From Actinomycetes bacterium (lineage in GTDB: Bacteria; Actinomycetota; Acidimicrobiia; Acidimicrobiales; SZUA-35): a stretch of 32,342 bases of DNA. Position numbers and translations under genes: made by a program. Positions 8,821 to 14,882 of the stretch are shown one piece after another (within the stretch, counting starts at the first letter, position 1; the number at the start of each line of letters is the position of its first letter). The stretch spans positions 1-32,342 of the forward strand of contig JAJRXF010000124.1 of assembly GCA_024276425.1 (NCBI GenBank), read 5' to 3'. Under the pieces are notes generated by a model. It searched no databases and was not told the DNA's origin. It was given only the letters and a program-made list of their open reading frames with translations.

Positions 8821-9788
8821 ACTTCCTCTCTCCCGAACGACTCTGGGTGTTGGTCGTAGTCGCGATATTGGCCGCCCTCTACATATTCATGCAAACTCGA
8901 CGCAAGGTGTACGCGGCCCGTCTAAGTTCCAGCGCCATGCTCGATTCAGTGCTCCCCAAGACGCCAGGCTGGAGACGTCACGGCACCGCCCTGATCTTCC
9001 TGTTGTCTCTGGCCGGACTGGTCGTCGGGTTCGCCCAACCAACTCGATCCGTACGTGTTCCTCGTGAGCGAGCCACCGTCATTGTCGCCATCGACGTATC
9101 CTTGTCGATGCAAGCCACCGACGTCACCCCCGATCGGCTCAGCGCCGCCCAAGATGCGGCCAATCGGTTTATAGATGAGCTGCCCCCAACCCTCAATGTC
9201 GGGATTGTTTCCTTCGCCGGGACTGCCGCCGTTCTCGTTCCCCCGACCCAGGATCGAGCTCTTGCCCATCGAGCAATCGAGCAACTCGAACTAGCCGAAT
9301 CAACCGCCATTGGAGAGGCAATCGTGACAAGCCTCGACGCATTATCTTCTGCCCCACCAGATGAGACTGGAGAAACGCCCCCAGCAAGAATCGTCCTTCT
9401 ATCAGACGGAGTAACAACGGTGGGAAGATCTGACGAGGAAGCCATTGCCGCCGCCCTCGTCGAGGAAGTTCCCGTGTCGACCATTGCCTTTGGTACCCCG
9501 GAAGGACTGATCTTGTATGACGATCCCGCCACTCCAACCGTTGAGCAAGATCCGATTCCCGTTCCCGTTGGCGGTGACAGCCTTCAAACCATTGCCGATA
9601 ACACAGGAGGAACTTTCTTCTCCGCCGAGAGTCTGGAAGAGCTCGATGCCGTCTACAACGACATCGGCTCAGCTATTGGTTACGAAGACGCCGAGCGCGA
9701 AGTAACCGACTGGTTCGTGGGTGGGACACTGGCAGCCTTGGTTGTCGCTGGGTTGTTGAACCTGCTGTGGTTCCAGCGCCTTCCCTAG
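8817..9788 (+). CDS. BatA-like membrane VWA-domain protein
   Basis: From GTG 8817, which overlaps the DUF58 stop by four bases, the product is 323 residues. Two N-terminal membrane helices (about 8-25 and 58-75) precede a von Willebrand A domain with an intact metal-ion-dependent adhesion site: DVSLSM (Asp93, Ser95, Ser97), a Thr in AESTAIGEA and Asp in LLSDGVTT. A last helix (about 300-318) returns the chain to the membrane. This is the BatA/BatB arrangement found with MoxR and DUF58. The complex probably works at or outside the membrane, but the client is unknown. Its TAG stop (9786-9788) interlocks with the smc stop on the other strand. Confidence 0.93.
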   Translation: MNFLSPERLWVLVVVAILAALYIFMQTRRKVYAARLSSSAMLDSVLPKTPGWRRHGTALIFLLSLAGLVVGFAQPTRSVRVPRERATVIVAIDVSLSMQATDVTPDRLSAAQDAANRFIDELPPTLNVGIVSFAGTAAVLVPPTQDRALAHRAIEQLELAESTAIGEAIVTSLDALSSAPPDETGETPPARIVLLSDGVTTVGRSDEEAIAAALVEEVPVSTIAFGTPEGLILYDDPATPTVEQDPIPVPVGGDSLQTIADNTGGTFFSAESLEELDAVYNDIGSAIGYEDAEREVTDWFVGGTLAALVVAGLLNLLWFQRLP

Positions 9789-12700
9789 CTTCTGGTTTCA
9801 ACCTTCTCACTCACCACCTTGGATGAGCCACCCGGCTTCATACTGACACCGTAGAGCACGTCTGCAGCCTCCATCGTGCGTTTCTGATGGCTGACGATGA
9901 TCAGTTGTGCTTCCTTGCGGAATTCTTGAACCAAGGCCAGAAAGCGGTGCAGATTCATATCATCGAGTGCCGCCTCAACCTCATCCATCACATAGAACGG
10001 TGAGGGACGGCTCTTGAACACGGCAAACAGAAAACCAAGGGCAGTCAACGAACGCTCTCCGCCAGACAACAGAGATAGCTTCTTTACGTTCTTCCCCGAA
10101 GGCTTAGCCTCGATCTCAACCCCGCAGTTGAGCAGATCCCCTGGATCGGTCAATTTTACCGCTCCCCGCCCGCCAGGGAAAAGGGTCTGAAACAGCTCGA
10201 CAAAGTTCGTGGCAACATCGGCGTAAGCGGCAGAGAACACATCGACGATTTCGCTATCAATCTCACGGATGAGCCTGCTCAGGTCACGCTTTGTACTCTT
10301 CACATCCTGAAGCTGACCATCGAGAAATTCATGCCGACCCTTGAGCTCTTCGAACTCCTCAAGCGCCAGGGGATTGATCGGGCCCAACAACTTCAGTTCC
10401 CGTTCCAGTTCGCGGGTCCGAGCCTCGGGCGTGGCACCCTCGGGAACCGCTGGCAACTCGGCCGCCATCGCCATTTCGGGTTCGGTGTCGAGATCTCGCC
10501 TCACCGCATCGGTCAGGGTTTCGAGTCGTACCCCGTTTTCTGCATCGGAAAGCTCAAGTCTACTGCGCTTGTCTCTGGTCTCTACCAGGTCTCGCTCGGC
10601 CTTCTTTCGTTCCCTCCTTCGCTCAGACAGGATTTCTGATACCTCTCTCGCGGCATGGGATTGGGCTTCCTGTTCTGCCCGAAGAAGTTCTAGCCACCCA
10701 TCAAGCGTCTCGCCTTTTTCGACCAGAACCTTGGCTAGTTCGTCGACTACGTCAAGCGATGATTGCAGATCTTCCCGACGAAACTTGGCTTCGGCCCTCT
10801 CACCAACCAGGCGTTCGAGTCGTTTCTCAACCTCGATCTGGCGAGCCAGCAAGGACTCTTCTCGACTGTTCAACGCGGCCCGGCGAACCTCGAGTTCACT
10901 TCGGAGTCTGGCTGTCGATTTTGCTCGATCCTCAAGCTCACGTCTGGCCTCCGACATCGACTGGTTGCGATCGGAATGAGCCGCTTCGTCTGCCTCGAGC
11001 CCCGGCAGGCGAAGTTGAAGCTCATCTGTTTGGGCCCGGTCCGAGGCCAGCCGCTCGCGTACGGCACTGAGTTGGTCATCAAGCCGCATTCGATCCGCTG
11101 CCAGATCATTCAGTTGCTGAGTCGATCGTTCTACCGAGGCCGATGCTGCCTCAAGCTCCCCCTGGGCACTGCGAAGACGACTCTCGGCCTGGTGTCTGCC
11201 CTGGCGCGCGACCTCCCGCAGTTCCTGGACATCAAGCAGGGAACGAGCCGCAGCTGCGGCCGAAGCTATTGCGACCTCGGCAGATGACACCGCCTCCTCA
11301 AGCGCAGCCCCCGTCGCCCCGGTGCCTGCCTGCCCGATGCTCCAACTACCTCGACCGAAACGGTCACCAGATCGCGTGACAACCGTCGTGTGCGGGTATT
11401 GAAGAACGACGTCAAGGGCCTCCCGCCAATCAGAGTCCAATGCCACCGCATCGCCAAGCAAAGAATCGAGCAGACCTTCAACATCGGGTCGGAGGGCACG
11501 AACATGTTGACGGACGGGCTCTCCCACGGGAGGAACTGAAGGCTTGGAGCGGGCCGCTGCGAGGGCGACGAAGGGCCCAAGGGCCAGAACTGCTCCGGCC
11601 AGGTCTTGGGATGCCAGCGATTCTAAGGCCGCTCGTCCGTTGGCGACATCGTCAACAACCACCGCACGCATGGCCTGGCCGGCTGCGGCTTCAACCGCCG
11701 CTCCCCATCCCTCGTCGATATCGACCAAGTCGAGCAGGGTGCCCAATACTCCCACTTCACCAACCAACGCGTCTGCTCCAGCCGCACTCCTTGCGGCATC
11801 CAGGGCTTGAGCCAGGGCGTCAGCCCTTGCCTGCCAGCGACTAGCCTCGCTATCGGCCTGGCGACGGGTCTCGGTTGCCTCTTCAACCCTCTTTTCAAGC
11901 GTAGAGCACTCGCCGGTCGAGCGAACAACCATCTCTTGAAGCTTGGGTACTTCTAGGGTGAGCCGTTCGACCGTTGTCTGTGCGTCGGTCCGGCCTTGGA
12001 TCAGCCGGTCGTGACGGGCCCCGAGAGCATCCAACTGCTCCTCTAGTCGACGGCTTTCCTGATCATCTCGTTGGGCGGCCGATTGGAGGGCCGCTAGCTG
12101 GGTTCGGACCTCTGCAGCCTGAACTGGGGCGGGACCCATTCCCTCTCCCCATGCTTGCTCAAAAGCCTCGTGATCCTGCGCCAACCTACGCTCAACTACT
12201 TCGAGCTCTCGAAACTCCGGGTCGAGTTCGTGACCCTCAAGGACAGTCGTCGCCAAGGACTCAACGATTGATGCCGCCTCGGATTCCAGGCTGGATACCA
12301 CGCCCTCATCAACGGCAGACTGCAGTTCGCCCCTCAGGCGTCTCTGCCGCTCAGCCACAACATTGGCCTGGCCCCGGATCCTCTCCTTCAGGCTTTGGCC
12401 GCAGGAGAGAATGTCGCCGACATCGGATCCGCCGAGGGCCGCAAGCTCGGCCTCAGCGTTGAGTACCCCTCGGTCAAATTCGGCCAAGGTTGCCTGCAAC
12501 TCCGCAGTGCGAGCATCAAGGTCCGCTCGTTGTTTACGCGAGTGCGTCAGTTTGGCTTGGAGGGCCGTCAGTTCCCGGCCAACCAGATGGAGCTTCAGGG
12601 CGTGCAATTCACTCACCAGGGAACCATGCCGCCGAGCGGCATCGGCCTGCTTTTCCAGCGGTCGAAGCTGGCGTCTCACCTCTCGAACTAGGTCAGCCAA

Positions 12701-13270
12701 CCGATGAAGGTTCTCGTCCGTGGAAGCTAGCCGACGTTCCGCCCGCTCCTTGCGCCTCCGATACTTCAGAACACCAGCAGCCTCTTCAATGATCGCCCGC
12801 CGCTCTTCGGGCCTAGCGTTCAGCACTGCGTCAATCTGTCCCTGTGACACGATGATGTGCTGCTGACGGCCAACGCCAGAATCAGAAAGTAGCTCCTGGA
12901 TGTCTAGCAAACGACACGAAACATTGTTGATGGCATATTCGGACTCACCAGAGCGAAACAGGGTTCTCTTAATGGTGACCTCCGTGAAGTCAATCGGTAA
13001 CTGCCCGTCACTATTGTCGATAGTGAGGGAGACCTCAGCCCGACCAAGGGCCGATCGCTTCTGAGTACCAGCAAAGATGATGTCATCCATCTTTTGGGCC
13101 CGTACCGCCTTCGGCGCCTGGGCACCGAGCACCCAGGCCATGGCGTCAACAACATTGGATTTGCCGCTGCCGTTTGGTCCAACCACGACCGTCACACCCC
13201 GTTCGAGGTTGAGGGTGGCTGGGTCAGCGAACGACTTGAATCCCTTGATGGTGAGCGCTTTCAGGTACAC
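9785..13270 (-). CDS. smc: chromosome segregation ATPase SMC
   Basis: SMC forms the ring-shaped condensin that organises and segregates the chromosome. The 1161-residue protein starts at GTG 13270 with MYLKALTIKGFKSFA. Walker A is GPNGSGKSN (31-39). Two long coiled coils flank a hinge around 490-650 (gene-proximal motif GEVGVLGTLLDLV, later IGQAGTGATG). The C-terminal head has signature LSLLSGGERSLTALG and Walker B FYVMDEVEAALDD. Length and domain order are normal. It lies 17 bp after the MutM-like gene in a rnc-mutM-smc run common to actinobacteria. It converges on the VWA gene with overlapping stop codons, leaving no room for a terminator between them. Confidence 0.98.
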   Translation of the reverse strand: MYLKALTIKGFKSFADPATLNLERGVTVVVGPNGSGKSNVVDAMAWVLGAQAPKAVRAQKMDDIIFAGTQKRSALGRAEVSLTIDNSDGQLPIDFTEVTIKRTLFRSGESEYAINNVSCRLLDIQELLSDSGVGRQQHIIVSQGQIDAVLNARPEERRAIIEEAAGVLKYRRRKERAERRLASTDENLHRLADLVREVRRQLRPLEKQADAARRHGSLVSELHALKLHLVGRELTALQAKLTHSRKQRADLDARTAELQATLAEFDRGVLNAEAELAALGGSDVGDILSCGQSLKERIRGQANVVAERQRRLRGELQSAVDEGVVSSLESEAASIVESLATTVLEGHELDPEFRELEVVERRLAQDHEAFEQAWGEGMGPAPVQAAEVRTQLAALQSAAQRDDQESRRLEEQLDALGARHDRLIQGRTDAQTTVERLTLEVPKLQEMVVRSTGECSTLEKRVEEATETRRQADSEASRWQARADALAQALDAARSAAGADALVGEVGVLGTLLDLVDIDEGWGAAVEAAAGQAMRAVVVDDVANGRAALESLASQDLAGAVLALGPFVALAAARSKPSVPPVGEPVRQHVRALRPDVEGLLDSLLGDAVALDSDWREALDVVLQYPHTTVVTRSGDRFGRGSWSIGQAGTGATGAALEEAVSSAEVAIASAAAAARSLLDVQELREVARQGRHQAESRLRSAQGELEAASASVERSTQQLNDLAADRMRLDDQLSAVRERLASDRAQTDELQLRLPGLEADEAAHSDRNQSMSEARRELEDRAKSTARLRSELEVRRAALNSREESLLARQIEVEKRLERLVGERAEAKFRREDLQSSLDVVDELAKVLVEKGETLDGWLELLRAEQEAQSHAAREVSEILSERRRERKKAERDLVETRDKRSRLELSDAENGVRLETLTDAVRRDLDTEPEMAMAAELPAVPEGATPEARTRELERELKLLGPINPLALEEFEELKGRHEFLDGQLQDVKSTKRDLSRLIREIDSEIVDVFSAAYADVATNFVELFQTLFPGGRGAVKLTDPGDLLNCGVEIEAKPSGKNVKKLSLLSGGERSLTALGFLFAVFKSRPSPFYVMDEVEAALDDMNLHRFLALVQEFRKEAQLIIVSHQKRTMEAADVLYGVSMKPGGSSKVVSEKVETRS

Positions 13271-13287: not shown

Positions 13288-14136
13288 CTAGACCTGCGTG
13301 GTACAGAAGAAAACTGGCTTGCCCTTGAATGTCGCTTTGGAGATTGGCACCCGAGATCGAGGACTAAGTTCCCCGGCCTTGCCATAGACCGCCAGATGAT
13401 CTCCAAACTCTCCGGGGTTTCCCGTGAGATCGAGAAATGGCCGCTTCTCCAGTGAAGTCCCACGATATTTGATGGCATCATGAAGGATTCCGACCACCGA
13501 GCGATAGAGCCGACGGACCTCTTGAGTGGTCAGTTCGTTGGCCTTGCGGTCATAACGTAAGCCAGCGTCAAACAAGATCTCATCGCTATAAATCGCCCCA
13601 ATTCCCACAAACGCGGTCGAATCCATGAGCAAAGCCTTGAGTGGTTCAGTGCGGCGTAACACGAAACGTCCAAAATCGATCCAAGACATCGGATGACTAA
13701 GCAGATCGAGGGCCTGCTCATCTTCGGGCAGCAGGCTGGCCTCGAATTCCTCGGTACTCATAAGTCGGATCAGATTCGATCCATCGGTGTCGGCTACCCG
13801 TAGGTCTCCACCCTGAGTAAAGGTCACTACAAGATCAATATCACTAGCCATTGCCTTGCGACTCGCGCAGCGTTCGAGTCGACCTGATGCACCAAGATCA
13901 ATGGCCAAGACCATCTCGTTGTTTAGTTGAAGAAGGATCGTGGTCGTACATCGCTCGACGGCTAGGACCTTGGCTCCGATCAGAGGATCGGCGAATGCCT
14001 TCTTTGTCCGGAATCCGGGCATCGACTTGAGACTCTTGGCATCGACGGCTTTGACCTTGCGGCCGACAATGTCTCGTTCAAGGTCTCGACGTAGAGTCTC
14101 GATCTCTGGTAGCTCTAGTTCGGCCATGGCGCCCAT
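13288..14136 (-). CDS. mutM: Fpg/MutM-family protein, probably without base-excision activity
   Basis: Overall sequence and position (rnc-mutM-smc) identify the formamidopyrimidine-DNA glycosylase family: LPEIETLRRDLERDIVG at the N-terminus, DLGASGRL, and GIGAIYSDEILFDAGL (helix-two-turn-helix). Length (about 280) is normal. The catalytic features are not: family members begin Met-Pro-Glu-Leu-Pro-Glu, with Pro as the nucleophile after Met removal, whereas here the frame reads MAELELPEIET, placing Leu at that position. The active-site Lys of the GKY turn is replaced (ERCTTTILLQL), the void-filling Met of GMSGRL is Ala, and the C-terminal zinc finger has kept one of four Cys (LSPRSR and FFCTTQ). 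ATG 14136 is preferred (GGAAGAG just upstream); GTG 14139 and ATG 14127 are alternatives. It overlaps the rnc stop. It may be a DNA-binding relic or have another role. Confidence 0.88.
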   Translation of the reverse strand: MGAMAELELPEIETLRRDLERDIVGRKVKAVDAKSLKSMPGFRTKKAFADPLIGAKVLAVERCTTTILLQLNNEMVLAIDLGASGRLERCASRKAMASDIDLVVTFTQGGDLRVADTDGSNLIRLMSTEEFEASLLPEDEQALDLLSHPMSWIDFGRFVLRRTEPLKALLMDSTAFVGIGAIYSDEILFDAGLRYDRKANELTTQEVRRLYRSVVGILHDAIKYRGTSLEKRPFLDLTGNPGEFGDHLAVYGKAGELSPRSRVPISKATFKGKPVFFCTTQV

Positions 14137-14882
14137 CACTCTTCCAGTGCGTTGGCGAGAACGATCCAGGCCGACCGTGCGGCCGCCTGCTCTGCTCTCT
14201 TTTTGGATGTTCCGCTGCCCTCACCCATCGAGTTATCGTCAACGATGGCAACTGCTTCGAAGCGACGATCATGATCAGGTCCGCTTCCGGTTATTCGATA
14301 GCCTGGCGATCCAAGCCCAAGCTGGGCCGTCAATTCTTGGAGACGGGTCTTGTAGTCCTGGCGACCAGGTCGTTCGGCGCCAGCAAGTATGTCTTCCAGG
14401 AGAAGACGGAGCACGATCTGCTGGGCCGTTTCCCAGCCGCCGTCAAGGTATACCGCTCCGATGACCGCCTCCAACGAGTCGGCAAGAATCGACTCCTTGT
14501 CTCGCCCTCCGGATTGATCTTCACCTTTGCCTAGCAACAGAATAGAACCCAGTTCTAATCGGGCCGCAACCTCGGCCAAGGTGGCCGTATTCACAACCGA
14601 AGCTCTGAGCTTGGCCAGGTGCCCCTCGGCCAGATCTGGATAGCTGGCATGGATGTGATCGGTGACCACCAAACCCAAAACCGCATCACCAAGGAACTCC
14701 AGGCGCTCATTGGAGGTCGCCTCGACGTTCTCCGCACAATAGCTACGGTGGGTCGTCGCCAACCTCAGGTACGCCAAGTCCTTGAACTCATAGCCAAGAT
14801 CACGGGTGAACGCCGCGGTTTCAGGCCATGGCTCATCGGTCGATGAATTCGCCGAAAGTGGTGCGGTCTCCGTATCGCTCAG
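14136..14882 (-). CDS. rnc: ribonuclease III, apparent CTG start
   Basis: RNase III cuts double-stranded RNA in rRNA and mRNA maturation. The core shows NERLEFLGDAVLG (Glu and Asp metal ligands at about 62 and 66), DSLEAVIGAVYLDGG, then a C-terminal double-stranded RNA-binding domain ending GTSKKRAEQAAARSAW. The first standard start codon in frame is TTG 14777, which would cut off the first helix. Upstream of it the frame remains open and reads like a typical N-terminus (PETAAFTRDLGYEFKDLAYL) back to a CTG at 14882, just downstream of an in-frame TGA. That CTG overlaps the acpP stop as CTGA and has GGAG three bases upstream. I therefore extend the gene to 248 residues. The 3' end overlaps the MutM-like gene by three bases. 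Confidence 0.9.
   Translation of the reverse strand: MSDTETAPLSANSSTDEPWPETAAFTRDLGYEFKDLAYLRLATTHRSYCAENVEATSNERLEFLGDAVLGLVVTDHIHASYPDLAEGHLAKLRASVVNTATLAEVAARLELGSILLLGKGEDQSGGRDKESILADSLEAVIGAVYLDGGWETAQQIVLRLLLEDILAGAERPGRQDYKTRLQELTAQLGLGSPGYRITGSGPDHDRRFEAVAIVDDNSMGEGSGTSKKRAEQAAARSAWIVLANALEE

Follow-up and report, generated by a model that had tools for sequence, protein, structure and literature searches.

A MutM homolog in the rnc-smc operon of Acidimicrobiia, probably a recurrent pseudoenzyme kept for a non-glycosylase role

The window analyzed here, a stretch of 32,342 nucleotides (positions 1 to 32,342 of contig JAJRXF010000124.1, assembly GCA_024276425.1), carries a homolog of the DNA glycosylase MutM/Fpg between rnc and smc, the same operon position that intact actinobacterial mutM occupies. 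The encoded protein is full length and lacks both the nucleophile of the enzyme and its lesion contacts, which raises the question of what such a gene is kept for. An earlier note on this DNA proposed a lesion-binding, non-cutting protein. The comparisons reported below point instead to a pseudoenzyme, probably retained for a role unrelated to glycosylase activity.

Residues lost and kept in the operon copy

The features of the locus are as follows.

13288..14139, minus strand: degenerate MutM/Fpg gene (pseudo-MutM), with a GTG start at 14139 or an ATG start at 14127
14136..14777, minus strand: rnc (RNase III), directly upstream of pseudo-MutM
9785..13270, minus strand: smc, directly downstream of pseudo-MutM
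14116..14118, minus strand: codon of Leu4, which aligns with the nucleophile Pro2 of Bst MutM (1r2y)
13942..13944, minus strand: Thr62, at the position of the active-site and phosphate-contacting Lys60 of Bst MutM
13888..13899, minus strand: D77-L-G-A80, where H74 and M77 (void-filling wedge) are gone
13777..13785, minus strand: D115-G-S117, where R112 and F114 of the intercalation loop are gone
13594..13596, minus strand: Ala178, at the position of the phosphate-holding N174
13291..13365, minus strand: former zinc finger, SPRSR.PI.K..FK..V..C.TQV, a motif conserved in relatives

The reading frame from 13288 to 14139 is open throughout, with zero internal stops, as the earlier note had stated, and the overlap with rnc that it described measures 4 nt at the rnc stop, provided that the GTG at 14139 is used; the ATG at 14127 is the alternative. 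Residues of the protein (P0001) are numbered from this ATG, and reference residues carry Bst MutM numbering. A scan for promoters and terminators gave no signal above chance.

The N-terminus of P0001 reads MAELELPEIET and places Leu4 where a functional MutM/Fpg has Pro2. The candidate starts read MMGAM.., MGAM.. and MAEL.., and none of them yields an N-terminal proline, so the claim that the nucleophile is lost stands. The same is true of the other losses first noticed: Lys60 has become Thr62, HLGMSG has become DLGASG (hence GASG for GMSG, with D77 and A80), and three of the four zinc cysteines are replaced (S255, S258 and T277, leaving C275). The full set of lost contacts is larger than the one first listed. 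DPR.FG reads DTDGSN (D115, S117), the Asn of GIGN is A178, and Arg264 is K270. The lesion-phosphate clamp K60/N174/R264 is thus represented by T62, A178 and K270, and the void-filling wedge M77/R112/F114 by A80, D115 and S117; PMC3188539 describes how K60, N174 and R264 act as a clamp and the loop with R112 and F114 as a wedge. The finger, with S, S, C and T at the cysteine positions and a Lys for the Arg, corresponds neither to a Cys4 zinc finger nor to a zincless finger with Arg. Glu3, the catalytic glutamate, and Glu6 are retained as E5 and E8. Judged from these residues, P0001 is predicted to be catalytically dead.

The fold, by contrast with the active site, is predicted to persist. P0001 scores above the Pfam cut-offs for the N-terminal domain PF01149 (56.8 bits) and the H2TH domain PF06831 (58.8 bits), while zf-FPG found no match in the same Pfam profile search. 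An AlphaFold model built from 27 degenerate relatives alone reached a pLDDT of 85, with MutM as its best structural match; a second one, from an alignment of 70 sequences that includes intact MutM rows, reached a pLDDT of 95.9 and a pTM of 0.91. The P0001 model superposes on Bst MutM bound to 8-oxoG DNA (1r2y) with Z 32.8 and rmsd 2.5 over 270 residues. At the start of the VIA-align alignment, model residue 4 pairs with chain residue 2 of 1r2y, and the former zinc finger is modelled as a confident beta hairpin. The models therefore have P0001 retaining the two-domain Fpg fold at full length. Against the NCBIfam equivalog models the protein falls short (155.7 vs a cut-off of 212, and 151.8 vs 203.3), whereas the second MutM of the same genome (L001, see below) clears both, with 239.4 and 220. 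Membership of the NFACT family was considered and rejected: P0001 reaches 14.5 of the 31 bits required by NFACT_N (E 0.015), and intact MutM also matches (E 0.0015), so that the match reflects shared H2TH ancestry only.

Distribution and selection across Acidimicrobiia

Of 39 genomes in the window's own family, 34 carry an ortholog (49-76% identity, no internal stops). They include all 20 high-quality genomes (completeness of 90% or more, contamination of 5% or less). Since the frames are open without stops in 34 genomes, an assembly or frameshift error was dismissed. Of the five genomes lacking the ortholog, four are without rnc as well and the fifth has a partial rnc match (residues 4-125 of 213), which makes an assembly gap likelier than true deletion of the gene. 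Wherever both flanks could be read the gene lies between rnc and smc, and nearly every flanked locus examined shows an rnc match close to the fpg gene on the same strand. Among the named records that carry a degenerate copy are the MAG SZUA-35, several Candidatus Microthrix and the marine MedAcidi-G2B.

Across the class, 220 operon copies from Acidimicrobiia were scored for the seven contacts K60, H74, M77, R112, F114, N174 and R264. All seven are kept in 100 copies, six in 3 (two of these truncated), and none to two in 117; no copy keeps three to five. Proline stands at the nucleophile position in 100 of 101 intact copies compared, the remaining one being N-terminally incomplete. Loss of the lesion contacts is common to all degenerate copies, loss of the zinc finger or the proline to subsets only. 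Among the 117, all four zinc cysteines persist in 21 and a free N-terminal proline in 19 (12 with zinc, 7 without); both features are gone in 86, and E3 is kept in 113. One genus (g5) reads MVEP-ELPE, with a proline present and buried behind a three-residue extension. Sites that are at least 90% conserved in intact and not in degenerate copies fall largely at the DNA/lesion interface and the zinc cysteines.

What remains is strongly constrained. Close, non-overlapping pairs (Nei-Gojobori, dS 0.1-1.5) give a dN/dS of 0.111 among degenerate copies (37 pairs) vs 0.096 among intact ones (21 pairs), in keeping with the suspicion in the earlier note that the gene is under some selection; an all-pairs median of 0.48 was discarded because saturated comparisons dominate it. 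These values indicate strong purifying selection on the degenerate copies, which evolve somewhat faster relative to rnc than intact ones do (1.30 vs 1.06). Constraint is greatest in their C-terminal half (H2TH and former zinc finger), where dN/dS is 0.082 vs 0.132 in the N-terminal half. K53, R59, R205, R206 and R257 are found in 100% of 56 degenerate representatives, and R209 and R259 in 98%, against high entropy at positions 62, 77, 80, 115, 117, 178 and 270. Net charge per 100 residues drops from +2.28 in intact to -0.08 in degenerate copies (p = 8e-12, shared ancestry ignored). As a control, rnc of the same genomes differs insignificantly and SMC N-termini show a smaller difference (p values again ignoring ancestry).

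Open frames, orthologs throughout the family and purifying dN/dS together argue against chance decay, and a recent pseudogene or decay in one genome was set aside on the family-wide conservation and the dN/dS. By sequence comparison the degenerate state is conserved across many families.

A second, intact MutM

If the operon copy no longer repairs oxidized bases, another enzyme might be sought, and the earlier note had proposed looking for a second, intact Fpg elsewhere in the genome. One is present: among four Fpg/Nei-type genes in the window's own genome, L001 on contig C49 encodes a complete MutM (MPELPEVET) with all sites intact. Two others, L002 (contig C185, 1087-1899, minus strand; MPEGVEIEFYRR) and L004 (contig C86, 889-1797, minus strand; MPEMPEIQAHAERM), score below all NCBIfam cut-offs.

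A search of 296 genomes of the class detected this second gene, MutM2, in 36. When that search is combined with the 39 genomes of the family, 65 genomes have a degenerate operon copy, and 57 of these carry MutM2; 58 have an intact operon copy, and none of these does (Fisher 9e-27, shared ancestry ignored). All 20 MutM2 sequences read keep every site, and all belong to one clade. The family f35 contains both states, and among the genomes read the split is exact, degenerate with MutM2 and intact without. Four of the eight degenerate cases lacking MutM2 belong to family f28 and have a different MutM (L281-L284), with Thr, Val or Ser at Arg264, the other contact sites intact and one start unclear. 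Another exception (G007) has a MutM2 broken off at a contig end. For G037, G249 and G207, which carry a degenerate copy, the genome search found no intact MutM. The latter two (L041 and L042; family f13, genus g39) are genomes of about 2 Mb, 95-96% complete, whose second gene is of the Nei-like L002 type; they have possibly lost MutM2 after degeneration of the operon copy.

In the gene tree most degenerate copies fall together, and the degenerate f35 copy groups with intact f35 sequences. Because long branches may attract one another in that tree, changes of state were counted on a tree of rnc and SMC N-termini. Parsimony gives seven changes of the degenerate state there, with three well-supported independent contrasts, too few for significance; the average number of contrasts that agree is 1.9 for MutM2 and 2.9 for any second intact MutM, and none goes against. 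By counts, the association of MutM2 with the degenerate state is thus strong; by independent replicates it is weak.

Two families of the same phylum, each outside Acidimicrobiia, provide side observations. In f56, six genomes searched have a degenerate operon copy together with a MutM2-type gene (incomplete in two); the operon copies (L324, L325, L335, L340, L341, L343, L346) keep the zinc finger and, in some, K60 or H74, and from their sequences could possibly be at an earlier stage of degeneration. In f62, the rnc-linked MutM starts Met-Glu-Leu-Pro-Glu in 11 of 11 copies (L326-L330, L332, L336, L337, L342, L344, L347), i.e. Pro2 is deleted, and an in-frame stop lies directly upstream of Met1 in four of them. 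These copies keep K60, H74, M77, R112, F114, N174, R264 and all four cysteines, and MutM2 was not found in the five f62 genomes searched. The alpha-amine of Met1 would occupy the place of the Pro2 amine, comparable to NEIL3, which has Val2 at the nucleophile position, and the f62 protein may be a MutM that uses its N-terminal Met as nucleophile, or else the true lesion-binding non-cutter.

Possible roles and relation to known systems

The operon mutM is probably a recurrent, conserved pseudoenzyme, kept for a role other than glycosylase activity that would most plausibly consist in binding another protein. The second MutM would have taken over repair of 8-oxoG and Fapy lesions, and this takeover would have freed the operon copy, which could then be retained for some function, old or gained, that does without lesion recognition. 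The near-neutral charge, together with the constraint on the H2TH and former zinc-finger half, makes protein binding the most likely function, and RNase III and SMC are the first candidate partners, by gene position only. Conserved basic residues (R205, R206, R209, R257 and R259) remain, and given these arginines pseudo-MutM may bind nucleic acid weakly.

Could the protein still recognize damage, binding oxidized bases and recruiting another repair pathway, as alkyltransferase-like proteins (ATLs) do from a repair-enzyme fold that lacks its nucleophile? Such a protein would be expected to retain the Fpg fold, the H2TH domain and E3/E6 under purifying selection, all of which is seen. However, ATLs lose only the nucleophile and keep all features for DNA binding and base flipping (PMC10779285), so that a design for lesion binding predicts early loss of the nucleophile with the contacts kept. 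The data are the reverse: no more than two of the seven clamp and flipping residues survive in any of the 117 degenerate copies, the nucleophile stays in 19, and the positive charge has fallen from +2.3 to about 0. The proposal of the earlier note is therefore not supported, and we consider it improbable. A chemistry of another kind, in which a different amine (e.g. the invariant K53) serves as nucleophile on a different substrate, would account for K53 and R59 being invariant in the degenerate representatives and for E3 in 113 of 117 copies; but pocket and phosphate-clamp residues all vary and no common new active site is visible there, which renders this idea very improbable.

The main rival is reuse of the Fpg fold on undamaged DNA or RNA, e.g. 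with RNase III or the ribosome, and we regard it as unlikely. Arginines conserved in the H2TH helix and in what was the zinc finger speak for it, as does the operon shared with rnc, and so does the precedent of the NFACT-N domain of RqcH/NEMF, a distantly related fold that binds tRNA (PMC8373112). Net charge near zero speaks against it, and so does the NFACT_N match itself, sub-threshold and shared by intact MutM. Finally, the reading frame might be a leftover kept just to couple translation of rnc and smc, between which it lies with a start that overlaps the rnc stop if GTG is used; since purifying selection at the amino-acid level equals that on intact MutM, and the former zinc-finger motif has long been conserved, this has hardly any probability.

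Pseudo-MutM belongs to the Fpg/Nei superfamily by its Pfam domains and predicted whole-length fold, and from its residues would not be a MutM by function. It shares with Bst MutM (1r2y) and E. coli Fpg (1k82) the full-length fold, H2TH and E3/E6, and differs from them in lacking Pro2, K60, H74, M77, R112, F114, N174, R264 and the zinc finger. A hairpin without zinc is also found in NEIL1, mimivirus Nei and a plant/fungal group (PMC3188539), but those enzymes remain active with the role of the finger unchanged, whereas in pseudo-MutM the finger Arg and all the other contacts vary. NFACT-N of RqcH/NEMF puts a glycosylase-related fold to tRNA/ribosome use instead of glycosylase activity, the relation to the DNA-glycosylase fold being reported in a title cited in PMC8373112; P0001 has a sub-threshold H2TH match only and keeps the full Fpg architecture. 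Rv0944 (Fpg2) of Mycobacterium tuberculosis is a second, defective Fpg homolog beside intact Fpg1, truncated at the N-terminus in that species and complete in other mycobacteria (PMC2734929), while pseudo-MutM has degenerated by point changes at full length and is fixed across families. A search of open-access full text turned up no paper naming both Acidimicrobiia and MutM and none describing a family of Fpg pseudoenzymes.

Left to automatic annotation, these genes would tend to be labelled DNA-formamidopyrimidine glycosylase, a function that the sequence evidence contradicts. They form a rare natural series from enzyme to pseudoenzyme, in which contacts are lost all or none, the nucleophile and zinc persist variably, a replacement enzyme is paired with the degenerate copy, and what remains has long been under selection. 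Tentatively, MutM of Actinomycetota may have been converted several times, with a second MutM present each time, into a non-repair protein of the rnc-smc operon acting together with RNase III or SMC. It is equally tentative that this would be a repeated passage from enzyme to scaffold whose intermediates still exist (copies with Pro and zinc but no contacts, copies without zinc, copies without Pro). The finding raises the question of whether intact MutM has a second role beside RNase III and SMC, one that would explain its fixed operon position.
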